Origin: a bacterium
Lineage (GTDB): Bacteria; CG2-30-53-67; CG2-30-70-394
Length of the DNA: 22,967 nucleotides
Direction of reading: 5' to 3'
Assembly (NCBI GenBank): GCA_024278555.1
Contig: JAJRSX010000051.1
Span: forward strand, 1-22,967
The position numbers and the translations under genes are program-made. Shown piece after piece: positions 4,849 to 22,422 of this stretch (the first letter of the stretch is position 1; each line of letters begins with the position of its first letter). Under the pieces are notes generated by a model. The model was given only the letters and a program-made list of their open reading frames with translations, did not search any database and was not told the DNA's origin.

Positions 4849-4865
4849 TGTCTCGAAATGAGACA
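4849..4865. promoter_or_regulatory. Upstream activator site 1, TGTCTC-N5-GAGACA
   Basis: A perfect inverted repeat TGTCTC GAAAT GAGACA, 17 bp. Its centre is about 155 bp upstream of the predicted sigma-54 start site and 45 bp (about four helical turns) from a second copy. The size and geometry are those of an NtrC-class enhancer-binding-protein site, although the sequence differs from the NtrC consensus TGCACC-N5-GGTGCA. The binding protein is not identified. Confidence 0.75.
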
Positions 4866-4892
4866 TCTTCCTGCGGTGCGTCCGCAACGATA

Positions 4893-4911
4893 GTGTCTCA
4901 AGGTGAGACAC
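4893..4911. promoter_or_regulatory. Upstream activator site 2, GTGTCTC-N5-GAGACAC
   Basis: The second perfect inverted repeat, GTGTCTC AAGGT GAGACAC, with 7-bp arms and the same 5-bp spacer. The core TGTCTC-N5-GAGACA spans 4894-4910. Its centre is about 110 bp upstream of the predicted sigma-54 start site. The paired sites on the same face of the helix fit cooperative binding of activator dimers. Confidence 0.77.
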
Positions 4912-4942
4912 GTGCCTCATGTTGAAAATTCACCATCATACA

Positions 4943-4955
4943 CAACTAATTGATA
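4943..4955 (-). promoter_or_regulatory. Putative IHF-binding site
   Basis: The minus strand reads TATCAATTAGTTG, an exact match to the IHF consensus WATCAANNNNTTR. It lies in an AT-rich stretch between the activator sites and the sigma-54 promoter, about 65 bp before the predicted start site. This is where IHF bends DNA to bring a bound activator to sigma-54 polymerase. The surrounding AT-rich stretch (about 4918-4980) is unusual in this GC-rich window. Confidence 0.62.
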
Positions 4956-4985
4956 CGACTGTATTCAAACGCGATTCTCAATGGT

Positions 4986-5001
4986 CGGCATGGCCATTGC
5001 G
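4986..5001 (+). promoter_or_regulatory. Sigma-54 (RpoN) -24/-12 promoter
   Basis: The sequence cGGCATGgccaTTGCg matches the consensus TGGCACG-N4-TTGC, with the invariant GG at 4987-4988 and GC at 4999-5000 at the required 12-bp phase. The predicted start site is near 5012, giving a leader of about 45 nt before the lipoprotein gene. Two inverted repeats and an IHF match upstream support it independently. Confidence 0.78.
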
Positions 5002-5056
5002 TGCTGCCGTGTGGGCACCAAGTGTCACTTCCTCCGACCCCGCACGAGGCCACCCC

Positions 5057-5476
5057 ATGACCCCCTCCAGGATCGTCCTCACCCTCCTCCTCGCCCTTCC
5101 CCTCGCCTGTGGTGGCGGCGGTGGTGGGAGCAGCAGCTCACCGGCCGACACCCAAGACAACGGCACCGCCGCAGCACCATCGCCCACCTCGACCCAGGTG
5201 GTCGTGGTCCAGCCGGGCGGCGGGGCGCCCACCGCCACCGACCCGGCGATGGGGGGGGCGACCGCCCCCACCCGCGAGGTCACCCCCTCCTCCATGCAGG
5301 TGGACCTCGAAGGCCGGCGGGTCTTCCTCCCGAACGAGGGGTGGCTCACCGAGGATGAGTTCTGGCGCATCTACTACGAGGAGCCCCAGCGGCTGCCGGC
5401 CGGCCTCGACTTCGAGGCGCTGAAGCGCCTCGGCTACCCGACCGAGCCGCCCACCAACGCGGGGGGGGCGGGATAA
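5057..5476 (+). CDS. Small predicted lipoprotein with Gly/Ser linker
   Basis: A 139-residue secreted protein of unknown function. The first 18 residues are a signal sequence ending LLLALPLAC. The following run GGGGGGSSSS is the flexible linker typical of lipoproteins, so Cys18 is the likely lipidated residue, although Pro rather than Leu at -3 makes the lipobox imperfect. A low-complexity Pro/Thr/Ala region follows. The folded part is residues about 75-139 (QVDLEGRRVFLPNEGWLTE and EDEFWRIYYEEPQRLP). I chose the ATG at 5057 because the in-frame ATG at 4919 lies upstream of the sigma-54 start site, and GAGG sits 7 nt before this one. It is the first gene of the transcript that continues into the giant protein 48 bp later. 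It may help anchor or export that protein, but this is inference. Confidence 0.8.
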   Translation: MTPSRIVLTLLLALPLACGGGGGGSSSSPADTQDNGTAAAPSPTSTQVVVVQPGGGAPTATDPAMGGATAPTREVTPSSMQVDLEGRRVFLPNEGWLTEDEFWRIYYEEPQRLPAGLDFEALKRLGYPTEPPTNAGGAG

Positions 5477-5524
5477 ACCGCACCCTGCCCCGGCGAACCA
5501 ATCTTTCGACCTGAGAGAGACCCC

Positions 5525-8500
5525 ATGAAGACCTCCGCCACCCTCCCCTCCCCCTCCCCGAGATGTCACACCGCTTTCCAGGCCGGCTGGCTGGTGCTCC
5601 TGGCGGCGCTGCTGGTCGTGCCGCACGTCGCGCGCGCCAACTCCATCGTCGCCAACCACTGCGACTGGAGCTTCAACCACATCACCCAGTTCGACGTGGC
5701 GGACACCATCTGTGTCGACGGCGACATCGACAACTTCAGCTTCGTTCAGTTCTTCGCGGACGCCTACATCGTCCCGAACCAGGTGTGGTCCGGCGGCGAG
5801 GCCCTCCACGACATCACCAGTGAAAATCGTCTCGTCAGCAGCATCACCGGCGGTGGCTTTTTCGGTGAGACCATCGGTCTGCCCGGTGGTACTCCGCGTG
5901 GCGAGTACGACCTGATCCTCGATGACCCGCCTAATGGCCACTACGACCCGGGCTTTGACGCGATTATCGGTGCCGGCCCTGAGTTTGCCTTCCGCGTGGT
6001 GGAGAGCGGCCGGCCGGTCCCCGACGTGAGCCAGATCAAGCTCCGTGCCGCCGGGCTGGAGACCCATTACTCCAACATGGCCATCTACTGGTCGCAGCTC
6101 CTCGACCTCGCCGATGCCCTCAACATGGCGTCCGCGGTGGCCGGCGGGCCGCTGGGCATCCTCGAGTACTACATATGGAAGCCGTACAACGATCTGACCG
6201 GCGACTTTGCCCGCAAGATCATCGGCGGCTACGGACCGAACCCCACCCCGCCCCCGGAACGTCAGGCCTTCGGCGTCGCGGGCAACGCCGCCAAACACTG
6301 GGGAGACCTGGCGCGTGACCCCGCCGATCCTCTCTTCCAGGTACTCGTCCCCCTCGACCTTGCGACAGTGGCCTCCGAGACGGCCGCCTTCTCGGGTCCG
6401 TACACCTACCCCTTCACGCCGATCGGCACGAGTCAGCGTGAGGCCGACTTGGTCGCCTGGGGCAACCTCTCGATGGAGCAGGCCGCCCTGGTGAAGGCCC
6501 TGCGCCGAACCTTCGAAAAGTTCCAGGGCGCCGACCAGGCTTTCGACGACCCCTACGCCTATCTCCAAGCGCGGCAACTCAAGAAGTATGCCGACCTCCT
6601 GGCGACCAACCTCACGGCCACCATCGCCGCGGCCCAGGCGGCCCGGGCCAACCTCATCGCCACCGGTGACGATGCCCTCTTCGATGTCACCGCCCTCGCC
6701 GCCTTCCAGCAGCGGGTGATCAACAGCGGCCTGACCGCGGACGAGATCAACAATATCCTCGCCCTCGGCTTCACCGCCGCGGACATCACCGAGATCGAGC
6801 TGCGCATCGCCGGCTGGCAGCTCCCCGCGGCCGACGGCCGAGTCTCCGACCAGATCGACGCGGTGGTGGCCGACATGACCGCCGGCGTGGCCGACTTCCA
6901 GGCGCTCGCCACCACCAGCCAGGCGTTGATGGACTTCCTCGCCCCGAAGATCACCCTCACCGCACCCACCGCTGCCGCGGGCGGGCCGTACACCGGTGTT
7001 CAGGGGAGCGCCATCGCCCTTGATGGCTCCGCCTCCAGCGACCCGAACGGCGACGCACTCGCCTTCGCCTGGGACCTCGACGGCGACGGCCTCTTCGATG
7101 ACGCCACCGGCGCTTCGGCCACCTTCCAGTCAAACGTGGAGGGGAGCTTCCCCGTCGGCCTGAAGGTCAGTGACCCCAGCGGCAACAGCGACATCACCTA
7201 CGCCCAGGTGACCGTCACCAGCGCCAACGACCCGCCACAGATCACCGCCTTCGCGCCCGCCTCCACCACCCCGGTGGCCACCGCCGCCGCACCGCTCGCC
7301 TTCTCGGTCACCGCCAACGACCCGGACGGCGACCCCCTCACCTACGAGTGGACCGTGGACGGCACCGTCGTCTCCACCGCGACCTCCTTCACCTACACCC
7401 CGGCGATCACCGACGCCGGCCACGTGCTGGTGCAGGTGACGGTGAGCGACGGCAGCCCCTTCAGCGTCGACGTCAAGGCGAGCCGCAACGTCACCGTCTA
7501 CTCCGACGCCGACGGCGACACCTACTTCTCCGATGTCGACTGCAACGACGGCGACGCCGCCATCCACCCGGGCGCCCCCGAGGTGTGCGACAACGCCGAC
7601 AACAACTGCGACGGCACCACCGACGAGGGGTTTGACGGCGACGGAGACGGCTTCACCACCTGCGCCCTGCCCACGCCCGACTGCGACGACGCCGACCCCG
7701 CCACCTACCCCGGCGCCCCCGAGGTGTGCGACTCCAAGGACAACAACTGCAACGGCACCATCGACGAGGGGCTCTTCGTCGACCTCGACGGTGACGGCGT
7801 GACCGCCTGCGGCGGCGACTGCGACGACAACGACCCAAACAACTTCCCCGGCAATGTCGAGGTGTGTGACAACCAGGACAACGACTGCGACACCCTCATC
7901 GACGAGGGGTTCGACGCGGACGGCGACGGCTTCACCACCTGCGCCCTCCCCACCCCCGACTGTGACGACACCAACGCGGCGATCAAGCCGAGCGCCGTCG
8001 AGGTGTGCGACCTAATTGACAACAACTGCGACGGCGCCATCGACGAGGGGTTCGACGGCGACGGTGACGGCGTCACCACCTGCGGCGGCGACTGTGACGA
8101 CGCCGACCCGAACAACTATCCCGGCAACGTGGAGGCGTGCGACCACGCCGACAACGACTGTGACGGGGTGGTCGACAACGGTTTCGACCTCGACGGTGAC
8201 GGCTTCACCACCTGCGCCCTGCCCGCCCCCGATTGTGACGACGGGGACGCCACCACCTACCCCGGCGCACCCGAGCTGTGCGACTCCAAGGACAACAACT
8301 GTGACGGCGCCATCGACGAGGGGGTCACCGCCGACGCCGACGGCGACGGGGTGACGATCTGCGCCGGCGACTGCGACGACACCGATCCGGCCATCTTCCC
8401 CGGCAACCCCGAGGTATGCGACGCCAAGGACAACGACTGTAACGGCCTGGTCGACGACGGCCTCGACGGTGACGGCGACGGCTTCACCACCTGCGCGGGT

Positions 8501-11500
8501 GACTGCGATGACACCAACCCCCTGGCCCACCCGGGCCGGGTAGAGATCCGCCACAACGGCTTCGACGACGACTGCGACACGGCCACACCGGACGACTACG
8601 CCGACACCTTCATCGTCGCCACCGACGACTCCGGCCGGGTCTACGTCGCCTCCTCCAACGGCGACGGCACCTGGTCCAACTACCGCCAGGAGGCAGCCCT
8701 CTCCAGCACCCTCCGCGGCGTCGCCATCGAGGACTTCGACGGCGACAACGACCTCGACTTCCTCATCCCGGAGATCTCCGACAACCGCAACCTGAAGATG
8801 CACCTCTTCGCCAATGACGGCGCGGAAAACTTCACCGACCTCGGGGTGGTGGCGGAGAGCGGCGTCTCCACCGGCCGCGCCTACGGCATGGCCGCGGGCG
8901 ATTTCAACCACGACGACCACGCCGACTTCATCGTCAGCCGCAACGGGCGCTACGTCATCATCGGCCTCGGCGACGGCGCCGGCGGCTTCACCGTGACCGA
9001 GACGGACACCGGCCTCTCCTCCGGCCGCGGGATCGACGTGGCCGACTTCGACCACGACGGCCACCTCGACTACGTGCGGGCGGTCTACTCCTCCGGTCAG
9101 ATCACCCTCTTCCACGGCAACGGCGACGGCACCTTCACCTCCCTCGGGGTGGTCGCCGACGCGGGTAGCGACCCGTACGGCGTGGCCGCCGCGGACTTCA
9201 ACGAGGACGGCCACATCGACATCCTCGCCAACGCCGGCGGCTCCGGGGATGCCACCTTCTTTGCCGGCAACGGCGACAACACCTTCCAGGCCGGTGTCGC
9301 GGTCCCCTCGATCGACTTCAACAACTACGGCAAGTACGGCGCCTACGACTTCAACCGCGACGGCCACCAAGACCTGATCACCGTCAGCCATACATCCAGG
9401 GTCATCCGCTATTACCCGGGCAACGGTGACGGCACCTTCGGCGCGGCGGTCCAGGTGAACACGAGCAACACCGCGAGCAACGTCCTCGGCGTGGCGGCGC
9501 CGCCGGGACCGAATCGTGCCGGGGGACCGACGGCGATCGCCCTCCCCTATTCGACCGTCGACACGATCGGCGCCACCGTCGCCTTCGACGGCTCCCTCTC
9601 CTACGACGACGGCGCCATCGTCTCCTACGGGTGGGACTTCGATGACACCACCAGCGACACCGGCGCCACCCCGAGCCACGCCTTCCCCTCGGTAGAGGGC
9701 GACTACGGGGTCGAGCTGTCGGTCACCGACGACGTGGGTAACGTCGACATCGACCGCGCCTTCGTGCGCCTCCTCGGGGCGCTGCCGGTCGCCGTGGCCG
9801 GGGGCCCCTACACCTTTGGCGAGGCCTTCGCCAACGGCGGCATCTACACCGTGCCCCTGGACGGCTCCGGCTCCTCCGATGACGGCGCCGCACCCCTCCG
9901 CTACCAGTGGGATCTCGGTACCGAGGTCAACGAGACCTTTGCCGGTGGCGCCATCGATAGCTCCGTGTGGACCGCCTCCAGCAATGTCAGCGTGGCTGCC
10001 GGCGAGGCAGTGGTGGTCGGCGCCGGCGGCTGGGGGAGCCAGTACCTGGTCACGAACGGCACCATCACGCGCAGCGCCGGCCGTTCCGTTACCGGCCGCA
10101 TGCAGGTCGACGCCGGCGGCAACCGCTATGTGATGTGGGGGTTGAAAAACACCAACAACGACTACAACTACACCCAGTTCTATTACGCGATCTACTTCGC
10201 CAACAACGCGATCCAAATCTATGAGGGGGGCGCGTACCGAGGCCAGTTCGGGAGCTTCGCGGACAACACGAGCTACGACGTGCGCATCGACACCAAGGGG
10301 GCTGCGGGTGCGACCTACTACTTCCGCCCCACCGGCACCACCGCGTGGACCCGCCTCTACGACTCGACCTACTCGAACGCGACCACCTTCCGTTTTGGCG
10401 CCACCGTCCATAGCGGCACGATCCACCTCGACGACTTCCTCGCCCGGCAGAGCTCAACGGCGGAGCAGCCCAACGCCGTTTACAGCGACCTGGGCCTCCA
10501 CAATATATCTCTGACGGTGACCGACGGCGTCGGCCAGACCGACACCGACACCACCACCGTCACCCTCGTCGCCGGCGCCCCGCCGGTGGCCGATCCGGGC
10601 GGGCCGTACACCCCGGGTGAGGCGGCGGCGAGCTGCAACCAGTGGACCGTTGCCTTCGACGGCACCGGTTCCACCGACGACAACGCGATCTACACCTACA
10701 CGTGGGACTTCGGCGACGGCTCCACCGGGACCGGCGCGACGCCGACCCACACCTACGCCGCCCCCGGCACCTACACCGTCACCCTCACGGTGACCGACCA
10801 CGCCCTGCAGACGGACACCGCCACCACCACGGTGACCACCACCCCCGGTGCGCCCCCGGTGGCCGACGCCGGCGGTCCCTACACGGTGGACGAGACCGCC
10901 GCCAGCGGCGGCCTGTGGACGGTGACCCTCGACGGCACCGGCACCACCGACGACAACGGGATCTGCGACTACCAGTGGGACTTCGGCGACGGCGCCACCG
11001 GCAGCGGTCCGACGCCGAGCCACCAGTACGCGGCGGCGGGTGACTACACCATCACCCTGACGGTGCGTGACCATGCCCACCAGGCGAACAGTGCCACGGG
11101 CATCGTCCACGTGACCGTGAACGACCCGCCGGTGGCGGCCCACGGCGGGCCGTACGCGGTCGACGAGAACCAGGCGAGCGGCGGTAGCTACACCGCCACC
11201 TTCGACGCCGGCGCCTCCACCGACGACTTCGGGATCTGGAAGTATGAGTGGGACTTCGGCGACGGCGCCACCGGCAGCGGCGCCACCCCCACCCACGTCT
11301 ACACCGCCCCCGGCACCTATACCGTGACCCTCACGGTGACCGACAACGGCCGCCAGGCAACCACCACCTCCACCCTCATCGCGGTGACCACCAACGGCGC
11401 GCCGATCGCCGACGCCGGCCCGGCACAGACCACCGAGGTGGGCTTGCCCGTGACCCTCGACGCCACCGGCTCCACCGACGACGTGGGGATCTTCTCCTAC

Positions 11501-14500
11501 CTGTGGGACTTCGACCTGCCACCCTTCGCCGAAGGCTTCACCTCCGGCATCCTCGATACCGAAACCTGGAGCGCGTCGACCGGCGCGGCCGTCACCGGTA
11601 ACGAGGCCGTGGTGACAGGCGCCGGCTCCTGGGGCAACCGCTACCTGGTCACCACCGACACCTTCTCCCGTACCGCCGGTGACTCCTACACCGGCCGCAT
11701 CATGGTGGAGAGCGGCGGCAATCGTTACGTCATGTGGGGGCTGAAAAACACCAGCACCACCTACAGCTACACCCAGTTCCCCTACGCGATCTACTTCAAT
11801 AACGGCTCCATCAACATCTACGAGGACGGTAGTAACCGCGGTAGCTTCGGCAGCTTCACCGACGGCACCAGCTACGACGTGCGCATCGACCTCAAGGCGG
11901 CCGGCGCCACCTACTTCGTCCGCGAGACCGGGGCCCCCGCCTGGACCCAGCTCTACGACTCGACCTACTCGTCGACGACGCCCCTGCGGCTCGGGGCGAC
12001 GGTCCACAGCGGCATCATCCATCTCGACGACTTCGTCGGACCGCCTCCCGGCAGCGCGAGAAGCCACCTGCCGGCGACAGAGATCGCCTACCCGGCCGCG
12101 GGGACCTACCACCCGTCGGTGACGGTCACCGACAACGCCCTGCAGACGGACACCGACGCCACCGTCATCACCGTGGTAGTCGGCGCCGCGCCGGTGGCAA
12201 ACGCCGGTGGGCCGTACAGCACCAACGAGGATGTCCCCACCCGCTTCAACGGCCGCGCCTCCACCGATGACTTCGGCATCGAGTGGTACACGTGGGACTT
12301 CGGCGACGGCACCACCCTGACTACCCGCAACCCCTTTGCCGACCACCGATACACCGTGGCAGGCAGCTACACCGCTACCCTCACGGTGACCGACTTCGCC
12401 GGCCAGTCGGCGAGCGACTCGGTGACCGTCAACGTCTCCGCCGACCCGGTGGTGGCGTGCGTGCCGTGGCAGTTCACCGGCGGCGTCGAGGTGCCCCACG
12501 ACACCTGGTCGGGCAAACAGATCACCCTCAAGGGCGTGGTCTGGTCCCTGCACGGGCCCCTCACCTACACATGGGACTTCGGTGACGGCTCGGCCACAGT
12601 GAGCGGTACGGTCACCGACAACCGCCACATCCAGGCGAAGCATACCTACAGCGGTGTCGACGGCGCGCCGTTTGTCGCCACCCTCACGGTGACCGACGCC
12701 AACGGCCAAAGCGCCTCCGACTCATACCTCGTACGCATCCGCGCCAAGTCCCTGGAGATCGAGACCAACGTCGCCATCGACGAGGGGCTGTGGTACCTGC
12801 AAGGGGTCCAGTCCCGTTCGGAGACGAGCGGCCTCCTCTACGGTTCGTGGACCTACGGCGGCTACATCGCACACGCCACCGGCTCCGCGGTCCAGGCCTT
12901 CGAGATCAACGGACACCTCGAGTTCGGCGATGTGCGCGAAGACCCCTACGTGGAGACGGTCTCCCGTGGCCTCCACTCCCTCTTCTCACTCTTGCGGCCG
13001 GTCGGTATCGGCACGCAGACCTACGGCGACCCCGACACCAACGGCAACGGGATCGGGATCGAGGTGGCGAGCAGCCGGCCGATCTACGAGGGCGGCATGG
13101 TGATGGACGCCATCGCCTCCTCGGGGGCGGCGGCCAACTTTGCGGACAGCGGACCGTCAGGGGTTAAGGACCGAACCTACAAGCAGGTTATCCAGGACAT
13201 GGCCGACCAGTACGCCTGGGGCCAGTACGACCACGCCACCGTGGGCGGCGGCTGGCGCTATAGCTGGAACAGTGGGCCGGACAACTCCGCCTGCCAGTGG
13301 GCCGCCATCGGCCTGCACGCGGCCAAGGAGATCTTCGGTCTCGACACCCCCCAGTGGGTGAAGGATCGCAATGATGTCTGGCTCTCCTACAGCTTCAACG
13401 GCGCCGGCTTCGGCTACACCGGCGCCGGCAACGGCATCGCCCAGACGCCATCAGGGCTGGTGCAGATGTCCTTCGCCGGCAACGACACCACCGACCCGCG
13501 CTGGATCGCGGCGGAGAACACCATCACCAATAACTGGAGCTCCTGGTACCGGGGCACGAACAACTACTACGCCCTCTTCGCGGTCACCAAGTCGATGCGC
13601 CTGGCGCTCCCCAACCCGGTAGTCAACCTCACCGGTACCGGCGCCAACAACGGCCTCGACTGGTTCAATGATCCGGTGAGCGGCGTCGCCCGCACCCTGA
13701 TCGACGACGCCTTCGCCAGCTCCGACGGCTCCTTCTCCGGCAGCGGCTCGTGGGTACGGCAGCCGACGCGCACCGCCTGGGGGATCATCATGCTCACCCC
13801 GACGCTCTTCGTGCAGCCGCCGGTGGCCGACGCCGGCTCCGACCGGGTGTGGGGGGTCGACGTGCCGCTGACCCTGGACGGCTCGGGCTCCTTCCACCTC
13901 GACCCCTTCCGGTCGATCGTCAAGTACGAGTGGGACCTCGACGGAGATGGCGTCTTCGACACCACCTCCACCGACCCGACCACCACGGTGACCTACTCCT
14001 CCGCCGACTATCCGGCCGCGACCCTGCCGACCAACGTCACCGTCCGGCTGTGGGTCACCGACAACAACGTGCCGCCGAAGACCGACACGGACACGGCGGT
14101 GATCACCATCGCCGTGCCGCCGCACCCGCCGATCGCCGACGCGGGCGGCCCCTACACCTGCACCGCGGGCCTGCCCTGCACCCTCGACGGCTCCGGCTCG
14201 TTTGATATCGACCCCACCGACTTCATCACCGCGTGGGAGTGGGACACGAACAACGACGGGACCTTCGGCGACACCACCGGCAAGCTGCCGGTGATCACCT
14301 TCACCACCCCGGGCATCCACAACGTCGGCCTGCAGGTGTGGGATAACGCGGTCCTCAACGACACCAACGGCAACGGCGTCCAGGATCCGGAAGAGCGGCT
14401 CAACGACCACGATTTCACCACCGTGACCGTGGTCGCCAACCAGCCGCCGGTGGCCGACGCCGGTGGGCCGTATGCGGTGGATGAGGGGTCCAGCGTCACC

Positions 14501-16138
14501 CTCGACGGTTCCGCCTCCTCCGACCCGAACGGCGACGCCCTCACCTACAAGTGGGACCTCGACAACGACGGCGCCTACGACGACGGCAGCGGTGCCACCG
14601 CCCCCTTCGCCGGGATCGACGACGCCACCGCCACGGTCGGCTTGTGGGTCTCCGACGGGGCGCTCATCAACACGACGACCACCACGGTGGTGGTCAACAA
14701 CGTCTCCCCGGCGGTCATTGCCGGTCCCGACCAGGCGATCGACGAGGGCTCTACCGCCTCGGTCACCGCCACCTTCACCGACCCGGGGGTGCTCGACACC
14801 CACACCGCCGCCGTGGACTGGGGTGATGGCTCCGCTCCCGAGGCAGCGTCCGTCACCGAGGCGGGCGGCAACGGCTCCATCGCCGCTGGCCACGCCTATC
14901 CCCAGGACGGCACCTACACGGTGACGATCACCGTCACCGACGACGACTCCGGCGTGGGTCAGGCGACCCTGAAGGTCACCGTGCGCAACGCCGCCCCGGT
15001 GGTCGACGCCGGGCCGGACCAGGGCGCCGTCGCCGGCCAGACGGTGACCCTGCCACCCGCCACCTTCACCGACGCAGGCGTGCTCGACACCCACACCGCC
15101 ACGGTGGACTGGGGCGACGGCTCGGCCGTCGACACCGCCCCGGTCACCGAGGCAGGCGGCAGCGGCACCGCCTCGGGCGCCCATGCCTACTCCGCGCCGG
15201 GGCTCTACACGATCACCGTCACCGTCACCGACGACGGCGGCGCCTCCGGCTCGGATACCGCCAAGGTCCAGGTGGGCAATGGCAACGGACCTCCCACCGC
15301 GGACGCCGGCGGACCGTACACGGTGGACGAGGGGAGCGACGTGACCCTCGACGCCAGCGGCTCGACCGATCCGAACAGCGATCCGCTCACCTACGGGTGG
15401 GATCTCGATAACGACGGCGTGTACACCGACGCCACCACCGCCACCACCCTCTACCACGGCGTCGACGACGGCACCTATCCGGTGGCGGTGGAGGTCTCCG
15501 ACGGCGCCCTCAGCGACACCGCCGCGAGCCAGGTGGTGGTGAACAACGTGGCGCCCACCGTCACCGCCGGCCCCGACCTGACGATCACCGAGGGCGACCC
15601 CGTCGCCCTGGCGCCCGCCACCTTTACCGATCCGGGTACCAGCGACACCCACACCGCCACCCTCGATTGGGGTGATGGATCGCCCGTGGAGGCGGGTGCC
15701 GTAACCGAGGCCGGTGGCAACGGCTCGGTGGCCGGGAGCCACGCCTATCCCACCGCCGGTACCTACACGGTGATCGTCACGGTCACCGACGATGATGGCG
15801 GCGTGGGCTCGGCGAGCTTCCAGGTCGATGTCCGAATGGCGCAGCAGAAGCCCATCGACGACCTCACGGCGAGGCCGAAGCTCAACCAGGTACAGCTCGT
15901 GTGGACCTGTGCACCGGGTGCGGTGAGCTACAACATCTACCGCGGCAACACCGCGGGCGGCCCCTACACCCTCCTCGCGGCGGGTCACACGACGACCTAC
16001 TGCACCTATCTCGACCAGGGGCTCATTACCGGAACCACCTACCACTATGTGGTCACGTGGATCGACGCCTCGGGTCGCGAGTCGGCCTTCTCGAACGAGG
16101 CCGTCGCCAGCCCCACCACCCGCAGACGGGCCCGGTAG
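5525..16138 (+). CDS. Giant secreted multi-domain PKD/MopE/FG-GAP surface protein
   Basis: A 3537-residue exported protein, probably a surface or matrix adhesin. Residues 1-38 are a signal peptide ending HVARA. Residues 39-475 are an unrecognised N-terminal region, partly beta and then helical. Two PKD/Ig-like domains follow (478-655), eight MopE-type Cys/Asp repeats (658-1019), and an FG-GAP/VCBS propeller (1025-1317) with DFDHDGHLDY-type calcium loops. PKD domains then occupy about 1332-2406; two of them are interrupted by a duplicated module of about 175 residues (1468-1644 and 1999-2174). An alpha/alpha helical domain resembling terpene-cyclase repeats covers about 2409-2762 (GGWRYSWNSGPDNSACQWA). 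Seven more PKD-like domains (2765-3437) and a fibronectin-III domain (3439-3529) lead to the tail RRRAR. GAGAGAG precedes the ATG by about 5 nt. The protein has no PEP-CTERM tail and no visible type I secretion signal. A role in adhesion is inferred from domains. Confidence 0.9.
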   Translation: MKTSATLPSPSPRCHTAFQAGWLVLLAALLVVPHVARANSIVANHCDWSFNHITQFDVADTICVDGDIDNFSFVQFFADAYIVPNQVWSGGEALHDITSENRLVSSITGGGFFGETIGLPGGTPRGEYDLILDDPPNGHYDPGFDAIIGAGPEFAFRVVESGRPVPDVSQIKLRAAGLETHYSNMAIYWSQLLDLADALNMASAVAGGPLGILEYYIWKPYNDLTGDFARKIIGGYGPNPTPPPERQAFGVAGNAAKHWGDLARDPADPLFQVLVPLDLATVASETAAFSGPYTYPFTPIGTSQREADLVAWGNLSMEQAALVKALRRTFEKFQGADQAFDDPYAYLQARQLKKYADLLATNLTATIAAAQAARANLIATGDDALFDVTALAAFQQRVINSGLTADEINNILALGFTAADITEIELRIAGWQLPAADGRVSDQIDAVVADMTAGVADFQALATTSQALMDFLAPKITLTAPTAAAGGPYTGVQGSAIALDGSASSDPNGDALAFAWDLDGDGLFDDATGASATFQSNVEGSFPVGLKVSDPSGNSDITYAQVTVTSANDPPQITAFAPASTTPVATAAAPLAFSVTANDPDGDPLTYEWTVDGTVVSTATSFTYTPAITDAGHVLVQVTVSDGSPFSVDVKASRNVTVYSDADGDTYFSDVDCNDGDAAIHPGAPEVCDNADNNCDGTTDEGFDGDGDGFTTCALPTPDCDDADPATYPGAPEVCDSKDNNCNGTIDEGLFVDLDGDGVTACGGDCDDNDPNNFPGNVEVCDNQDNDCDTLIDEGFDADGDGFTTCALPTPDCDDTNAAIKPSAVEVCDLIDNNCDGAIDEGFDGDGDGVTTCGGDCDDADPNNYPGNVEACDHADNDCDGVVDNGFDLDGDGFTTCALPAPDCDDGDATTYPGAPELCDSKDNNCDGAIDEGVTADADGDGVTICAGDCDDTDPAIFPGNPEVCDAKDNDCNGLVDDGLDGDGDGFTTCAGDCDDTNPLAHPGRVEIRHNGFDDDCDTATPDDYADTFIVATDDSGRVYVASSNGDGTWSNYRQEAALSSTLRGVAIEDFDGDNDLDFLIPEISDNRNLKMHLFANDGAENFTDLGVVAESGVSTGRAYGMAAGDFNHDDHADFIVSRNGRYVIIGLGDGAGGFTVTETDTGLSSGRGIDVADFDHDGHLDYVRAVYSSGQITLFHGNGDGTFTSLGVVADAGSDPYGVAAADFNEDGHIDILANAGGSGDATFFAGNGDNTFQAGVAVPSIDFNNYGKYGAYDFNRDGHQDLITVSHTSRVIRYYPGNGDGTFGAAVQVNTSNTASNVLGVAAPPGPNRAGGPTAIALPYSTVDTIGATVAFDGSLSYDDGAIVSYGWDFDDTTSDTGATPSHAFPSVEGDYGVELSVTDDVGNVDIDRAFVRLLGALPVAVAGGPYTFGEAFANGGIYTVPLDGSGSSDDGAAPLRYQWDLGTEVNETFAGGAIDSSVWTASSNVSVAAGEAVVVGAGGWGSQYLVTNGTITRSAGRSVTGRMQVDAGGNRYVMWGLKNTNNDYNYTQFYYAIYFANNAIQIYEGGAYRGQFGSFADNTSYDVRIDTKGAAGATYYFRPTGTTAWTRLYDSTYSNATTFRFGATVHSGTIHLDDFLARQSSTAEQPNAVYSDLGLHNISLTVTDGVGQTDTDTTTVTLVAGAPPVADPGGPYTPGEAAASCNQWTVAFDGTGSTDDNAIYTYTWDFGDGSTGTGATPTHTYAAPGTYTVTLTVTDHALQTDTATTTVTTTPGAPPVADAGGPYTVDETAASGGLWTVTLDGTGTTDDNGICDYQWDFGDGATGSGPTPSHQYAAAGDYTITLTVRDHAHQANSATGIVHVTVNDPPVAAHGGPYAVDENQASGGSYTATFDAGASTDDFGIWKYEWDFGDGATGSGATPTHVYTAPGTYTVTLTVTDNGRQATTTSTLIAVTTNGAPIADAGPAQTTEVGLPVTLDATGSTDDVGIFSYLWDFDLPPFAEGFTSGILDTETWSASTGAAVTGNEAVVTGAGSWGNRYLVTTDTFSRTAGDSYTGRIMVESGGNRYVMWGLKNTSTTYSYTQFPYAIYFNNGSINIYEDGSNRGSFGSFTDGTSYDVRIDLKAAGATYFVRETGAPAWTQLYDSTYSSTTPLRLGATVHSGIIHLDDFVGPPPGSARSHLPATEIAYPAAGTYHPSVTVTDNALQTDTDATVITVVVGAAPVANAGGPYSTNEDVPTRFNGRASTDDFGIEWYTWDFGDGTTLTTRNPFADHRYTVAGSYTATLTVTDFAGQSASDSVTVNVSADPVVACVPWQFTGGVEVPHDTWSGKQITLKGVVWSLHGPLTYTWDFGDGSATVSGTVTDNRHIQAKHTYSGVDGAPFVATLTVTDANGQSASDSYLVRIRAKSLEIETNVAIDEGLWYLQGVQSRSETSGLLYGSWTYGGYIAHATGSAVQAFEINGHLEFGDVREDPYVETVSRGLHSLFSLLRPVGIGTQTYGDPDTNGNGIGIEVASSRPIYEGGMVMDAIASSGAAANFADSGPSGVKDRTYKQVIQDMADQYAWGQYDHATVGGGWRYSWNSGPDNSACQWAAIGLHAAKEIFGLDTPQWVKDRNDVWLSYSFNGAGFGYTGAGNGIAQTPSGLVQMSFAGNDTTDPRWIAAENTITNNWSSWYRGTNNYYALFAVTKSMRLALPNPVVNLTGTGANNGLDWFNDPVSGVARTLIDDAFASSDGSFSGSGSWVRQPTRTAWGIIMLTPTLFVQPPVADAGSDRVWGVDVPLTLDGSGSFHLDPFRSIVKYEWDLDGDGVFDTTSTDPTTTVTYSSADYPAATLPTNVTVRLWVTDNNVPPKTDTDTAVITIAVPPHPPIADAGGPYTCTAGLPCTLDGSGSFDIDPTDFITAWEWDTNNDGTFGDTTGKLPVITFTTPGIHNVGLQVWDNAVLNDTNGNGVQDPEERLNDHDFTTVTVVANQPPVADAGGPYAVDEGSSVTLDGSASSDPNGDALTYKWDLDNDGAYDDGSGATAPFAGIDDATATVGLWVSDGALINTTTTTVVVNNVSPAVIAGPDQAIDEGSTASVTATFTDPGVLDTHTAAVDWGDGSAPEAASVTEAGGNGSIAAGHAYPQDGTYTVTITVTDDDSGVGQATLKVTVRNAAPVVDAGPDQGAVAGQTVTLPPATFTDAGVLDTHTATVDWGDGSAVDTAPVTEAGGSGTASGAHAYSAPGLYTITVTVTDDGGASGSDTAKVQVGNGNGPPTADAGGPYTVDEGSDVTLDASGSTDPNSDPLTYGWDLDNDGVYTDATTATTLYHGVDDGTYPVAVEVSDGALSDTAASQVVVNNVAPTVTAGPDLTITEGDPVALAPATFTDPGTSDTHTATLDWGDGSPVEAGAVTEAGGNGSVAGSHAYPTAGTYTVIVTVTDDDGGVGSASFQVDVRMAQQKPIDDLTARPKLNQVQLVWTCAPGAVSYNIYRGNTAGGPYTLLAAGHTTTYCTYLDQGLITGTTYHYVVTWIDASGRESAFSNEAVASPTTRRRAR
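7498..8580 (+). repeat. Tandem MopE-type metal-binding-motif repeats inside the giant gene
   Basis: Eight imperfect repeats of about 135 bp, each encoding a DCDDxDPxxxPGxxEVCD..DNxCDGxxDEG unit, as in Cys/Asp-rich MopE-type putative metal-binding motifs. After the first repeat, two versions of the linker partly alternate: TTCALPTPDCDD-type (repeats 2, 4, 6) and CGGDCDD/CAGDCDD-type (repeats 3, 5, 7, 8). The last repeat loses its final Cys pair (RVEIRHNGFDDDCD). DNA identity between repeats is high enough for recombination or assembly collapse. Confidence 0.85.
9926..10455 (+). repeat. Duplicated inserted module, copy 1 (within a PKD domain)
   Basis: Encodes about 175 residues (NETFAGGAIDSSVW to LDDFLARQSS) that split a PKD domain after YQWDLG and before the closing HNISLTVTD strand. 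It shares blocks GGNRYVMWGLKNT, SYDVRID, LYDSTYS and GATVHSG.IHLDDF with copy 2 at 11520-12045. The beta-rich sequence resembles a LamG/concanavalin-like carbohydrate-binding sandwich, but I cannot confirm the family. Confidence 0.75.
11520..12045 (+). repeat. Duplicated inserted module, copy 2 (within another PKD domain)
   Basis: The second copy of the beta-rich module (AEGFTSGILDTETW to HLDDFVGPPP), inserted at the equivalent place of a different PKD domain, after YLWDFD and before YHPSVTVTD. I estimate by eye well over half identity to copy 1. Three uninterrupted PKD domains (about 10576-11390) lie between the copies. Confidence 0.75.
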
Positions 16139-16145
16139 ACCACAC

Positions 16146-16189
16146 CCTCGGGGGGGCGGACGGGAGACCATCCCGTCCGCCCCCCGAGG
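16146..16189 (+). terminator. Strong hairpin terminator after the giant gene
   Basis: Arms CCTCGGGGGGGCGGACGGGA and TCCCGTCCGCCCCCCGAGG pair over 19 bp with one bulged G around a GACCA loop, starting 8 bp after the stop codon. There is no U-tract downstream (CCAATCTTG), so it is either an atypical intrinsic terminator or an RNA-stabilising 3' hairpin. Confidence 0.75.
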
Positions 16190-16254
16190 CCAATCTTGAC
16201 ATCGGCCATCCGCATCGGGAGCCTCTCGGCTCACCCCACGCAGGAGGAGATGCC

Positions 16255-17007
16255 ATGGCTCAGCTCACTCTCGTCTTCGTCACCGCCCTCTGCACCCTTC
16301 CCGCGGTCGCGTTGGCCGCCGGCGATCCCGCTGGCAGCCTGCCGGATGCACGCCAGTCCAGATCCACCGCGGAGGCCGCCCTGCGCAACCCCAAGGTCCA
16401 GGACCTGGGCAACGGCCGCTTCCGCGTCGGCCTGATCGCGGTCGATCGGAACCGGCACCGCTTCACCGTCCCCGCGGTGGTCCACCAGAGCGAGGGGACC
16501 CAGGAGTTCATCCTCGCCACCAAGGGTGGATACAAGGGGTATGAGACGACCCTTGAGGCGGGCGCCACCGCGTACGAGTTCAACGTCGCCTGCCTGCTCA
16601 TCGGCCTCGACCCGAAGCACGCCCGCGCCTCGCGCTACCACTTCGACCCGAACAAGGCCGAAGGCGACCCCGTGGCCGTCTCCATCTCCTGGCAGGATGG
16701 GAAAAAGACCCGCCGTCTGGACGCCAACCAGATCGTCGTCGACAGCCGAACGGGCAAGCCGCTGGCCGATACCGGGTGGGTCTACACCGGCTCCACCTTC
16801 ACCCCGGACGGCTCCTTCCTGGCGCAGATGGACGGGGTCCTCATCGGCTTCGTCCACGACCCGGCGGCGATCATCACCACCGGCATGGGCGCGGGTCAGG
16901 GGGACTACGGCAGCATCGTCCCCAACACCAAGGCGCTGCCGCCCAGGGAGAGCCGGGTCACCGTGGAGGTGAAGGCGATCTCCGCACCGACTGCCTCGGC
17001 CAAGTGA
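16255..17007 (+). CDS. YdjY-domain secreted protein
   Basis: A 250-residue exported protein with a YdjY-like domain. Relatives occur in periplasmic proteins near redox or ferredoxin-type genes; the biochemical role is not established. Residues 1-22 form a signal peptide (LVFVTALCTLPAVALA, then AG). From about residue 55 the sequence follows the domain pattern: VPAVVHQSEGTQEFILATKG, YETTLEAGATAYEFNVACLL, IGLDP, then VAVSISWQDGKKTRRLDA, GWVYTGSTF, FLAQMDGVLIGFVHDPAAII and NTKALPP near the end. A consensus AGGAGG lies 7 nt before the ATG, so expression is probably strong. It is the first of three tightly packed genes; the next starts 2 nt after its stop. It follows the giant gene's terminator hairpin by 65 bp, so it should have its own promoter, which I could not identify. 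Confidence 0.83.
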   Translation: MAQLTLVFVTALCTLPAVALAAGDPAGSLPDARQSRSTAEAALRNPKVQDLGNGRFRVGLIAVDRNRHRFTVPAVVHQSEGTQEFILATKGGYKGYETTLEAGATAYEFNVACLLIGLDPKHARASRYHFDPNKAEGDPVAVSISWQDGKKTRRLDANQIVVDSRTGKPLADTGWVYTGSTFTPDGSFLAQMDGVLIGFVHDPAAIITTGMGAGQGDYGSIVPNTKALPPRESRVTVEVKAISAPTASAK

Positions 17008-17009
17008 CC

Positions 17010-17276
17010 ATGCACTTCATGGTGATCAACCGTACCCGGAGCGATCTTACCCCGGAGGAGTATCGGAAGCTCGGCAAGCTGGCGCAGGCCTTCTACACGG
17101 CGCCGCCGGAGGGGATCGTCCTGCACGGCGACTGGGCGGCCACGGACGGGTCGTGCACCTACGCCATCCTTGAGGCGCCGAGCCGGGCACGCCTCGACGC
17201 GGTCCAGGCACCCTTCCGCCCCTTCGTGGCCATGGAGGTGGTGGAGGTTCGCCCCCTCTCCGGATGGGGCCGATAG
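17010..17276 (+). CDS. Small DUF3303-like (dimeric alpha-beta barrel) protein
   Basis: An 88-residue cytoplasmic protein with no signal peptide. It begins MHFMVINRTRSDLTPEEYR and continues GIVLHGDWAATDGSCTYAIL, FRPFVAMEVVEVRPL. This is the strand-helix-strand pattern of the DUF3303/ferredoxin-like Dabb folds, small proteins of unknown function that usually dimerise. The family call is from pattern memory and is moderate. The ATG lies 2 nt after the YdjY gene stop and the radical SAM gene begins 9 nt after its end, so the three genes are surely one transcript. It could serve as an accessory or substrate-handling subunit for the radical SAM enzyme, but nothing in the sequence proves that. Confidence 0.75.
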   Translation: MHFMVINRTRSDLTPEEYRKLGKLAQAFYTAPPEGIVLHGDWAATDGSCTYAILEAPSRARLDAVQAPFRPFVAMEVVEVRPLSGWGR

Positions 17277-17285
17277 CCGCGCTCC

Positions 17286-18536: not shown

Positions 18537-18920
18537 ACCACGAAGGGACACGCGGCCACGGCGAGGCCAAGCGACCCGGGCGCCGCCTCGCCCGCTTCGG
18601 CACCGCTCTCTCCACCACCCCCACGGCCCTCCCCCTCTTCGCCAGCCGCCCGCTCCCGCCCCTGGCCGGGGCCGACACCCCTACCACCGGCGCCGACCGC
18701 ATGCACCTCCTCCCCTTCTTGCTCGCCGCCGCCGGCAACCTCCTCGACGCCCTCGCCCTGACCGCCAACGGCGCCGCCCCGCCGCCCGATCGCCTCCTCG
18801 GCCCCGGACGCCCGGTCCCCATGGGGCCACCCGTGGTGGGTCGAGAGGCAAGAGCCGACGGGACGGTATAGGCCGTGCAAACCGAAAGCTCCATCCGACG
18901 GAAAGGCCAAACAAAGCAAG
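18537..18920. other. Intergenic stretch without a convincing gene
   Basis: About 380 bp between the radical SAM gene and the terminator. An open frame from the ATG at 18533 (product starting MNHEGTRGHGEAKRP) covers most of it, but the translation is low-complexity Arg/Pro/Ala and has no domain. The opening DNA AACCACGAAGGGACACG resembles widespread non-coding intergenic repeats that are often mis-annotated. No RNA gene or promoter stands out. Confidence 0.5.
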
Positions 18921-18954
18921 CGAGGCCGTTCCCCCCGCGGGGGGAACGGCCTCG
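18921..18954 (-). terminator. Perfect palindromic terminator of the PEP-CTERM operon
   Basis: CGAGGCCGTTCCCCCC, a GC centre, then GGGGGGAACGGCCTCG form a perfect 34-bp palindrome, so the stem is up to 16 bp. Read on the minus strand it is followed by CTTGCTTTGTTTGG, a T-rich tail, as expected of an intrinsic terminator for the leftward PEP-CTERM gene, which ends 36 bp before it. It may also stop rightward transcripts, though that side is not T-rich. Confidence 0.85.
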
Positions 18955-18989
18955 AGAACCTTCTCTATGCGGGGTGTATGCCCAATTTT

Positions 18990-19700
18990 CTACCCCTGCT
19001 TTCTCCGCAGTCCGGTGAGGGCCGCAAGGCCGAGCCCCAGACCATACAGGGCGAGGGTGGTCGGCTCGGGGATCGCCGGGCCGCCGCCCGCCGGTTTCTT
19101 CAGCAGGTTGCTGGTGAGGTAGAGGGTGTAGTCGTTGCTGTCCGGGTCGGTCTGCGACAGGACGAGGCCGGAGGTCGGCTGAACGTCGGAGATCAGGAAG
19201 TCGACGATCCCCAGCTCCCCCGCGGCGAGGGTGAAGTCCCAAGCCATGGCCATGGAGACGTCATCGGGAAAGGTGGTGTCACCGTAGATGCTGGTGCCGA
19301 CGCCGTTGTCGAGAGCGCCGGCCTGGAGGTTCTCGAAGATGTCGCCGTTGAAAAACCCGGGCTCGTCGACCTCCCACGTCTGGCCCGGCGCGGCAGTGCC
19401 GCCCTGGGCGCCGATCTCGTTGAAGAAGGTGTTGGCGAGCTGATCGATCTCGTGGTCGAAGAAGGCGCCCACGTAGTGGGACCCGGCGCCGCTGACGGTG
19501 ATTCGGAGCGTACCGAGACCGGTGGTGGCGTTGAACGCGCCGGTGTTCACCCCGGCCGGGAGGGGATCGCCTAGGGTTGGGTCGGCGAACGTACTGTCGA
19601 CGTTTACCGCCCAGTCGAAGAGGTCAACGGTGACCGCCTGGGCGGGGAGGGCTGCGAGCGGCAAGGCCGCCCCCAGCAGTAGAGCCATCAAGGTGCGCAT
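18990..19700 (-). CDS. PEP-CTERM sorting-domain protein
   Basis: A 236-residue exported protein carrying the PEP-CTERM tail recognised by exosortase in Gram-negative bacteria. Residues 1-22 are a signal peptide (LMALLLGAALPLAALPAQA). The C-terminal 27 residues (210-236) contain the IPEPTTLALYG motif, a hydrophobic segment GLGLGLAALTG and a basic end LRRKQG, which is the complete tripartite signal. The middle is an acidic beta-rich domain (VDLFDWAVNVDSTF, GVGTSIYGDTTFPDDVSMAM) of the sort seen in matrix-associated PEP-CTERM proteins. AGGAG lies 8 nt before the ATG. I see no terminator or promoter in the 108 bp after the upstream gene, so the two probably share the sigma-54 transcript. No exosortase is in the window; its gene must be elsewhere. 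Confidence 0.93.
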   Translation of the reverse strand: MRTLMALLLGAALPLAALPAQAVTVDLFDWAVNVDSTFADPTLGDPLPAGVNTGAFNATTGLGTLRITVSGAGSHYVGAFFDHEIDQLANTFFNEIGAQGGTAAPGQTWEVDEPGFFNGDIFENLQAGALDNGVGTSIYGDTTFPDDVSMAMAWDFTLAAGELGIVDFLISDVQPTSGLVLSQTDPDSNDYTLYLTSNLLKKPAGGGPAIPEPTTLALYGLGLGLAALTGLRRKQG

Positions 19701-19808
19701 GGTGTTTCTCCTTTCACGGAAGGCAGGTGGGTGAGCTCCCTCCTCCGGGTGTCGCTCGTGGTTGTGGATCGGGTTCGTCGGATTGAGTAGCGCTTTCTTT
19801 GTTGTCGA

Positions 19809-22030
19809 TTACCGCCGCCGGCGCCGCCGGACCACCGGCTTGGCAGACGCCTCGTTCGACTGGCAGAACTCGGCGTTGTTGGCGGCCGCCGGCCTCACCA
19901 CGTAGTAGTAGGTGGTGCCGTTGGTGACCGCCCTGTCGAGGTAGGTCGAGTAGCGCGAGGTGGTGGTGGCGAGGAAGGTGTACGGGCCGCCCGAGGTGGT
20001 GGAGCGGTAGACGTTGTAGTGGTCTGCCCCCGTATCACCCCAGACGAGCTGCACCTTGCCGCGCTTCGCTCGCGCCCGCAGATCCTTGATGCACGCGGCG
20101 CAAGCGGCGTCGTTGGCGCTCTTGACCGAGACCTGGGCCGAGTCGGTGTCGCTCAGGTCGCCCATGCCGCTGCTCGGGAAGGAGGTCGCCGTGGTGTCGG
20201 TGACCTGGAGCCGGATCAGGTAGTCCCCGACCCCCGCGGCGGTGAAGATGGCGGTGACGTCGGGCTGGCTGCCCACGGCGTCGCCGAAGGTGCCGTCGCC
20301 GTCGAGATCCCAGAGGTAGCTCTGGATCGTGTCGCCGGGCAGGCCGGGCTCGTGGAGCCCCTCGTCCGGGTTCACCGAGCCGGTGCCGTCGAGGGTGATG
20401 GTCTGCCCGACCACCGCCGGGTTGGGGATCGCCTGGGCGACGGCCACCGGGCCACCCGCCTGGAAGATTACCGGATTGAACATAAGGATCGCCCACGCGG
20501 TCTCGAAGGGGTATTGGGTACCGGTGAAGTTGTGGGCGTACCAGTGGCCGTCCGTCGCCTGGCCGTTGAGAAGCGTCCGCGCCACACCGTCGAGGGGGTC
20601 GCCCATGCTCACCTGGGCCGCGTACCAGTCGACGTCAGCGACACCGGCAGTCTGGGACTGAAGCATGACGATGGGCGGTGTCTGCAAGACCATCGACTTC
20701 ACGAAGGAGAACATCCCGTAGTAGTAGCTGCGGATGGCGCTCCCCGCACCACCGGTGTTGCCGAAGCGGTCGCGGATATAGGTCTCGGCCTTGTCCCAGC
20801 GGGCATCGCCGCGGCCAATCCCGTCAAGGCCATCTGCACCATCCCCGACGGAGCCACGGCGTAAGGCCCCCACGGGAAGGAGCCGTTGGAGGTGTACCCG
20901 AAGGCACCGTTGCTGTTCTGGCTACAGCCGAGCCACACCTCATTCTCGGTCTTCACCCAGCCAGGGACGGTGACACCCGCCCAGCCGGCCCGCTCCGCCG
21001 CCAGCAGCCCAATCGCCGCCCACTGACAGGCGGAACCGTCCGGCCCCTGGTTCCAGACATACCGCCAGCCGCCGCGAGCGGCGCCCGGGTCGTACTGGCC
21101 GTAGGCGTACGAATCCACCATGTCCTGAACGACGTCGGCGTAGGTGCGACCGAGGATCCCCGGGTTCGCACCCGCGGGGGCCTGGCCGGTGGTGGTGACG
21201 GCGCTGGGGGTCCCCGAGGCGATGATCGCGTCCATAAACATCCCGCCCTGGTAAACATAGTTACTTTGATTCACACGGACGCCGTAACCGTTGCCGTTGG
21301 AATCGGGATCGACCACGCCGGTGCCATTGGTCTGGTTGGAGATCCCCTCGGTCGTCAGAAATTGGAAGAGCCGCCGCATACCGCGCGCGACGTCCTCCGT
21401 ATACGGGTCGGAGGTGGGGCCGGACTCGAGGTGGCCGTTCGCCTCGAAGGCGTTGAGGTTCGTGGGGGTGATGCCGTAATAGCCGGATGATGCACAGCGG
21501 CTCCCGCACGAGGTTCCCTGGTTCCAGTCGCCGAACTCCTGGCCGCCGCTGGAGAACCGCTGCATCGTCTTGTGGAGGTACCAGAGCCCCTCGTCGATGG
21601 CCACGTTGACCTCGGTCTCGAGGGTCTTGTCGCGGATCTCCACCAGGTAGATCTGACTATCACTCTCGCCGGTGCTTGTATCCGTTACCGTCAGGCGAGC
21701 GGTAAAGATGTCGTTTGGGCTCCCGACGTAGGCGTGGGTGGCGTCGATCACGTACTGATTGGTCACCGTCCCCACCATCGGGGCGGTGCCGTCACCGAAG
21801 TCCCAGGTGTACTCGATGGTCGCTCCGGCCACACCCGAGGTTCCCTTGAGGGTGATGCTCTTGCCGCTCGACGTGTCGTGGGGGATGAGGCTGTTGGTCG
21901 CCACCCACGGCACCGTCTTCACCGTCGGCTGGACCGCCAGCGCCGGAGAGGCAAAGACGAAGGTAAGGAGGAGGGCCAAAAAGGTCGTCGTCCAACTGCG
22001 TGCTGGTTTATTGATTTCTACCTTGGCCAT
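19809..22030 (-). pseudogene. PKD/helical-toroid/FN3 secreted protein, frameshifted near 20816-20833
   Basis: A shorter paralogue of residues about 2309 to the C-terminus of the giant protein, exported by a signal peptide (residues 1-32, ending ASPALA). It holds a PKD domain (EYTWDFGDG), a terpene-cyclase-like alpha/alpha domain (NVAIDEGLWYLHKT, GGWRYVWNQGPDGSACQWAA), another PKD domain (YLWDLDGDGTFGD), an FN3 domain (YNVYRSTTSGGPYTF) and the tail VVRRRRRR. The first frame runs from the ATG at 22030 to GMVQMALTGL (about 20816) and the rest continues in the frame giving GRGDARWDKAETY. One missing base would restore a product of about 740 residues that aligns with the giant protein across the junction. 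This may be a real mutation or an assembly error; the rest shows no decay. GGAGGA precedes the ATG by 4 nt. Confidence 0.8.
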
Positions 22031-22158
22031 GTCGTCCTCCGGGGAGGATGGGTGGCTTCGCTGACAGCGTCACTGCGCCGGAGTCAGAGGGGTGCGAACG
22101 GGAGACCTTCCCGAGGACCTGACCATTCGCACCGGCATTTGTCACTTCTTCTTCTTTT
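22031..22158 (-). promoter_or_regulatory. Structured 5' leader with Shine-Dalgarno hairpin
   Basis: The predicted transcript leader of about 128 nt from the sigma-54 promoter. On the transcript it holds GGTGCGAA paired with TTCGCACC (8 bp, plus-strand 22126-22133 and 22091-22098), enclosing a 5-bp CGGGA/TCCCG stem. Just before the start codon, TCCTCC-CC-GGAGGA folds the Shine-Dalgarno sequence into a short hairpin. It does not match any riboswitch consensus I know, but it could regulate translation or stability. Confidence 0.5.
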
Positions 22159-22168
22159 CCGGATTCAA

Positions 22169-22184
22169 TGCAATTATCGCGCCA
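22169..22184 (-). promoter_or_regulatory. Sigma-54 (RpoN) promoter of the paralogue/PEP-CTERM operon
   Basis: On the minus strand TGGCGCGataaTTGCA matches the consensus TGGCACG-N4-TTGCW at every position but one, with GG and GC correctly 12 bp apart. The predicted start site is near 22158. An inverted repeat like the two upstream of the giant operon lies at 22406-22422, about 256 bp upstream. Confidence 0.8.
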
Positions 22185-22340
22185 CCCCTACCCGAACTCC
22201 CGAATGCGTCGTAGGCTACGCTGTAACACATTGTTTTCATTCTTATTTGTATCCAGTAGAGAGAGGGAGATCGACCCCTCCGACCGATCTTGGGTTGAAA
22301 AAAATGCTGACAGGAAAGTTCTCTCTACCTCTCGACACTG

Positions 22341-22362
22341 TGCACAAACCTTGATGCACAAA
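22341..22362. repeat. Short direct repeat TGCACAAA x2
   Basis: TGCACAAA occurs at 22341-22348 and again at 22355-22362, a 14-bp period, in the AT-richer stretch between activator site 3 and the sigma-54 promoter. It may be a second regulator's site or chance. Confidence 0.4.
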
Positions 22363-22405
22363 GGACTTATGACGATGTAAATATCTTCGACACCCCTTTG
22401 TTGTG

Positions 22406-22422
22406 TATCTCATCCTGAGACG
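22406..22422. promoter_or_regulatory. Upstream activator site 3, TATCTC-N5-GAGACG
   Basis: TATCTC ATCCT GAGACG keeps the 17-bp layout of the two perfect repeats at 4849 and 4894, with one mismatch in each arm. It sits between the leftward sigma-54 promoter and the rightward kinase gene, 27 bp before the latter's likely start. It could activate the first and repress or autoregulate the second. This role is inferred. Confidence 0.6.

Follow-up and report, generated by a model that had tools for sequence, protein, structure and literature searches.

A genus-restricted dyad and sigma-54 sites suggest one regulon linking a giant-protein operon with a PEP-CTERM operon

The window analysed here is the complete contig C20 (JAJRSX010000051.1; 22,967 bp) of a 3.06-Mb bacterial genome in 211 contigs. 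It carries two operons on opposite strands, one encoding a giant secreted protein and the other a paralogue of that protein's C-terminal region together with a PEP-CTERM protein. Each operon is preceded by a sigma-54 site and by at least one copy of an inverted repeat that we call the T-box. We consider it likely, judging from the sequences, that both operons belong to one T-box-defined sigma-54 regulon served by an NtrC-family activator other than PrsR. That the two operons form one sigma-54 regulon had been proposed earlier from the window alone (the original prediction), and the idea gains computational support from T-boxes found throughout the genome and from the conservation of both promoters' T-boxes in G001, a genome of the same genus and the nearest relative examined. 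The regulon is far larger than the two operons of the window. Our analysis covered the sites themselves, their enrichment, their conservation in two species, their distinctness from the PrsR box and the presence of rpoN, prsK, prsR and candidate activators. Besides G001, six genomes of the same class but of another (sister) family were compared, and motif counts were controlled with the reversed pattern in the same genomes.

For proteobacterial PEP-CTERM genes, Haft et al. (2006) described a 17-nt motif ending in TTTACA, which lies about 63 nt (32–92) upstream of the sigma-54 site (PMC1569441). The T-box has other half-sites: its consensus, drawn from sites in both genomes of the genus, is YGTCTCA-N3-TGAGACR with an A/T-rich centre.

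T-boxes and sigma-54 sites in the window and in the genus

The giant operon is preceded by two exact TGTCTC-N5-GAGACA dyads, TGTCTCGAAATGAGACA at 4849–4865 and, 45 bp away, TGTCTCAAGGTGAGACA at 4894–4910. At the paralogue operon there is one T-box (22406–22422), common to this operon and a divergent kinase gene, with 2 mismatches and a perfect TCTCA-N3-TGAGA core. A site of this type at both operons is what the original prediction had claimed, and that claim holds. In the window alone, dyad matches with up to three mismatches were no more frequent than chance (12 seen, 8.85 expected); in the whole genome, the exact TGTCTC-N5-GAGACA occurs three times, versus none for the reversed pattern. A match at 22248–22264 (2 mismatches), considered as a second T-box of the paralogue operon, was rejected: it has no conserved inner A/T, is absent from the blocks that survive in G001 and is probably due to chance. 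A literature search for the T-box dyad sequence returned nothing relevant.

On a simple scale of our own (maximum 15.9), the sigma-54 site of the paralogue operon, GTGGCGCGATAATTGCA (22169–22185, minus strand), scores 14.4, and that of the giant operon, TCGGCATGGCCATTGCG (4985–5001, plus strand), 74 nt past the second T-box, scores 13.5. These are the two best sites of the window and its sole intergenic ones scoring at least 13.2. Near-consensus promoters had been predicted at both operons; the description suits the paralogue operon, but the site of the giant operon is no better than fair. A random sequence with equal composition yields 3.6 sites of at least 13.2 per window, although the intergenic stretch at the giant operon is shorter than 300 bp.

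The paralogue promoter has diverged from its G001 counterpart, and three blocks survive: the T-box (exact there, in the same place), a PrsR-type box and the sigma-54 site (of which GGTGGCGCG..ATTGCA is kept). The PrsR-type box, TGTCGAAGATATTTACA (22376–22392, minus strand), matches TGTCRA-N5-TTTACA exactly and has 1 mismatch in G001. A degenerate second box, TGTCAGCATTTTTTTCA (22296–22312, minus strand), has 2 mismatches, and TGTCAATGATCTTATCA occupies the equivalent position in G001. These boxes lie about 190 nt (exact) and 110 nt (degenerate) from the sigma-54 site, outside the range given by Haft et al. At the giant operon, no site for PrsR box motif 1 was found within 4 mismatches between 4700 and 5100. 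The inputs to the two operons thus differ, being T-box only for the giant operon and T-box plus PrsR box for the paralogue operon. In G001, the orthologous lipoprotein–giant gene pair has two upstream T-boxes, 43 bp apart.

This genome has 7 exact cores (12 of 12 positions) and G001 has 12; the reversed pattern yields none, and no exact core occurs in the six sister-family genomes. With one mismatch allowed, G001 has 27 matches versus 0 reversed, and the sister-family genomes have 1–5 versus 0–9. Location and promoter context were assessed for 46 T-boxes in the genomic regions that we examined. All but 3 of them (43/46) are intergenic, though intergenic bases make up 20% of those regions. A sigma-54 site and a gene start lie downstream of 32 of the 46, as compared with 386 of 3480 random intergenic points in the same regions (p = 4e-20), and most T-boxes stand 60–240 bp upstream of the sigma-54 site, the classical enhancer position.

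Further PEP-CTERM genes with the same upstream motif, which the original prediction had proposed to look for, do exist: outside the window there are eight (0.08 expected), on contigs C4, C26, C48 (two), C52, C56, C83 and C116. Other T-box targets encode a TIGR03025 exopolysaccharide sugar transferase (C79), a doubled-CXXCH cytochrome-like protein (C27), lipoproteins of 945 and 1860 aa (C70 and C74) and small conserved proteins (C81 and C175). At least 11 T-box/sigma-54 promoters, including those of both window operons, are conserved in G001. Tandem T-boxes are spaced by 18, 22, 22, 23, 24, 32, 33, 33, 43, 43, 43 and 45 bp, mostly near whole helical turns (Rayleigh p = 0.0006; 0.005 without orthologue duplicates).

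Two families of small conserved proteins (about 83 aa) each follow a T-box and a sigma-54 site (L076 on C81, 3460–3711; L195 on C78 of G001, 5173–5424); in G001, one such gene is convergent with prsR.

PrsR boxes, candidate T-box readers and alternatives

A Vibrio alfacsensis plasmid with an annotated prsR served to calibrate the PrsR box. There, TGTCRA-N5-TTTACA (0–1 mismatch) occurs at three promoters, 61–91 nt from the sigma-54 site, two of them at PEP-CTERM genes; one more PEP-CTERM gene has the box and no recognised sigma-54 site. No T-boxes were found on this plasmid. In the sister family, the same motif adjoins PrsR and PEP-CTERM genes, often in tandem at 76–78 bp. Such pairs or triplets were seen at G005:C109:1615/1691, G005:C214:19906/19982, G007:C10:56225/56301 and G006:C104:33098/33176/33254, as well as on C164 of the present genome (G000), upstream of 61820 (minus strand). 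The present genome has 6 PrsR-box matches versus 0 reversed. The box stands at the paralogue operon, at a PEP-CTERM gene on C164 (twice) and at another on C116. We rejected the T-box as a version of the PrsR box, given that the calibrated box has other half-sites. The reluctance of the original prediction to name PrsR as the regulator was justified in this respect, yet the paralogue operon has a PrsR box too.

A third dyad, GGAAACnCGAGTTTCC, lies upstream of the sigma-54 promoters of PEP-CTERM genes on C84, C125 and, in part, C52, often twice at 34 bp (L083 on C84 at 8301, 8335 and 9749; L090 on C125 at 6327 and 6361; L066 on C52 at 5194 and 5228). On C84, one copy precedes the gene of an orphan sigma-54 activator by 310 bp. 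Because this dyad is found at some of them, the PEP-CTERM promoters appear to be split among three activator sites.

Both operons have promoters of the -24 GG/-12 GC type, and the genome has a single copy of rpoN. Divergent from the paralogue operon, the window encodes the N-terminal part of a HAMP histidine kinase (22450–22967, plus strand) that runs on into contig C118. We infer the join between C20 and C118 because the kinase frame is interrupted at the contig end; C118:2-922 aligns with the G001 kinase from residue 195 onward, at 74% identity. Next to it, C118:967-2394 encodes an NtrC-type activator with receiver, sigma-54 interaction and Fis-type helix-turn-helix domains, 80% identical to its G001 orthologue. 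With the kinase aligned across the contigs and the activator adjacent, this pair and the paralogue operon therefore diverge around the T-box in both species. A divergent layout is usual for a regulator and its target. The divergent kinase/activator pair (kinase from 22450, activator at C118:967-2394) is our leading, though tentative, candidate for the T-box reader. It has a close rival, itself doubtful, in an HDOD-GAF-PAS kinase/activator pair on C33 (activator at C33:4937-6334), where the T-box is almost the sole stretch of DNA upstream of the kinase that is conserved relative to G001. Apart from these two pairs and PrsR, the reader might be some other activator or a protein with no action on sigma-54.

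Among the sister-family activators compared (a partial set), none is a close orthologue of the C118 or C33 activator. Assigning the reader by presence or absence in the sister family was abandoned, as several activators have the same profile. A search of 84,980 species genomes for the C33 kinase likewise failed to discriminate, its orthologue occurring in the same genus only. No link to the T-box was seen for the NtrB-like kinase encoded at the window's left edge (2–1093), which was not followed further.

It might be argued that PrsR itself, its DNA-binding domain having drifted, reads both TGTCRA-N5-TTTACA and YGTCTCA-N3-TGAGACR, in which case the regulon would be the classical PrsK/PrsR one. 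PrsR (TIGR02915, 580 bits) and PrsK (TIGR02916, 440 bits) are indeed present above the cut-offs, beside exosortase genes on C106 (PrsR at C106:432-1766); the recognition helix of PrsR here and in the sister family is not the same (TSRPTLHHLLNKYEI versus ISRVTLHDMLKKYGI); and T-box targets are largely PEP-CTERM genes. However, this genome retains the canonical PrsR box, the two boxes occur together within individual promoters kept across species, the box calibrated in Vibrio and the sister family has half-sites unlike those of the T-box, and no T-box was found upstream of prsK-prsR in the stretch examined. Taken together, these data make a drifted PrsR improbable as the reader.

The T-box could also be read by a protein other than a sigma-54 activator, such as a repressor or a global regulator of surface genes, with the sigma-54 promoters driven by PrsR or other activators. 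What speaks for this is a set of T-boxes that lie 20–100 bp from start codons and have no clear sigma-54 site, namely at the C33 histidine kinase, at an XrtA export protein on C151 (TIGR03027), at hisA (L080 on C162, position 2162) and at tgt (L064 on C97, position 4539), all kept in G001; another, near the start of sat (sulfate adenylyltransferase; L289 on C143, position 6458), also lacks one. Most T-boxes, however, are at enhancer distance from a sigma-54 site (60–240 bp upstream), and many PEP-CTERM genes, like the giant operon, have no other recognisable enhancer box. We regard this explanation as unlikely.

Several points weigh against the assignment of both operons to one T-box/sigma-54 regulon. 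The sigma-54 site of the giant operon, with its fair score, is weaker and shifted in G001. The role of the T-box goes beyond that of a sigma-54 enhancer, since at least five near-start copies have no clear sigma-54 site, and its conservation is shallow, since it is seen in two species only. Finally, genes were called with a simple codon scorer of our own, and the sigma-54 score is similarly simple.

Genes of the two operons

The first gene of the giant operon (5057–5476, plus strand) encodes a small lipoprotein with a lipobox-like start; its G001 orthologue, behind two T-boxes, is 56–59% identical. The giant protein itself (5525–16138, plus strand; 3537 aa) contains PKD, MopE and FG-GAP repeats, and Pfam finds in it 14 PKD stretches and 8 MopE metal-binding stretches (putative copper-binding, PF11617). 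Its G001 orthologue is 39.5% identical over residues 73–999. A YdjY-domain gene (16345–17007, plus strand; NF040466, 112 bits) is, by its position, a possible third member of the operon.

The paralogue (19809–22030, minus strand) is spread over two overlapping frames, 20699–22030 and 19809–20873. As its homology to the giant crosses the break, the gene presumably contains a frameshift (around 20800) or an assembly error, within 20740–20900. It is 47% identical to residues 2304–2668 of the giant and 49% to the giant's C-terminus, and both proteins end in an Arg-rich tail after the common C-terminal domain. A common PKD-toroid module and C-terminal architecture had been predicted; the homology and the PKD assignment (by Pfam) bear this out, but the toroid part was not confirmed. 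For the helical part of the common module, neither Pfam nor the PDB gave a match, and the AlphaFold model was too poor for use (mean pLDDT 36). The second gene of the paralogue operon (18990–19700, minus strand) encodes the PEP-CTERM protein, with PF07589 (21.6 bits) and TIGR02595 (19.5 bits) both over the cut-off; the giant and the paralogue matched neither of these two models and have no PEP-CTERM signal. In G001, the paralogue and PEP-CTERM genes are followed immediately, on their own strand and past a terminator-like hairpin, by a gene for a second homologue of the giant protein (L206, C162).

A proposed mechanism and its relation to known systems

We propose that an NtrC-family activator other than PrsR would bind T-boxes about 60–240 bp upstream of -24/-12 promoters, where tandem T-boxes often lie about 2, 3 or 4 helical turns apart, and that DNA looping from these sites would drive the RpoN polymerase. 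The output would be extracellular matrix, in the form of PEP-CTERM proteins, the exopolysaccharide sugar transferase, giant secreted proteins and lipoproteins. PrsR would be a further input at the paralogue operon, through that operon's own box, and not at the giant operon. Binding, activation and matrix function are predictions from sequence.

In our judgement the evidence is evenly balanced on a broader idea, namely that in this genus control of the PEP-CTERM/exopolysaccharide matrix regulon has for the most part passed from PrsR to an NtrC-type activator specific to the lineage, with the PrsR box retained at a minority of promoters and GGAAACnCGAGTTTCC at others. If so, three separable sigma-54 activators would determine what the matrix is made of, and this would be a case of a conserved regulon switching its controlling site between sister families. 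Biofilm bacteria have many PEP-CTERM proteins, but the literature that we found generally ties only one activator family (PrsR) to the promoters of their genes. A second, lineage-specific activator site, common to exopolysaccharide genes and giant secreted proteins as well, would provide a defined list of candidate matrix components and testable regulators.

Experimental precedents exist for sigma-54-dependent PEP-CTERM genes and for promoter binding by a PrsR-type regulator. The PEP-CTERM gene pepA of Aquincola tertiaricarbonis is RpoN-dependent (PMC9850573). In Desulfovibrio vulgaris, a DNA-affinity assay showed binding of the PrsR-type regulator DVUA0057 to five predicted PEP-CTERM targets, and the study also reports two other regulators that share a few targets (PMC3333781). 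Neither study deals with the T-box or with a second activator site in one promoter.

The T-box arrangement resembles the element of Haft et al. in that a sigma-54 promoter is combined with an upstream 17-bp dyad at PEP-CTERM genes, in a genome that has PrsK, PrsR, exosortase and exopolysaccharide genes and in which the paralogue operon carries the Haft-type box itself. It differs in its half-sites (GTCTCA/TGAGAC versus TGTCRA/TTTACA), in being restricted, across the genomes searched, to one genus, and in its presence at non-PEP-CTERM genes such as those of the giant operon, which has no PrsR box.

Another familiar class of element is formed by the upstream activating sites of NtrC-type regulators, for example TGCACC-N5-GGTGCA. 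Like these, the T-box is a 17-bp dyad that occurs in tandem on one helical face, at an enhancer-like distance from sigma-54 sites; unlike them, it has different half-sites, and its targets are matrix genes rather than nitrogen genes. The kind of system is therefore known, and what appears to be new, as far as sequence comparison can tell, is the T-box site, its genus-restricted spread and its layering with PrsR.

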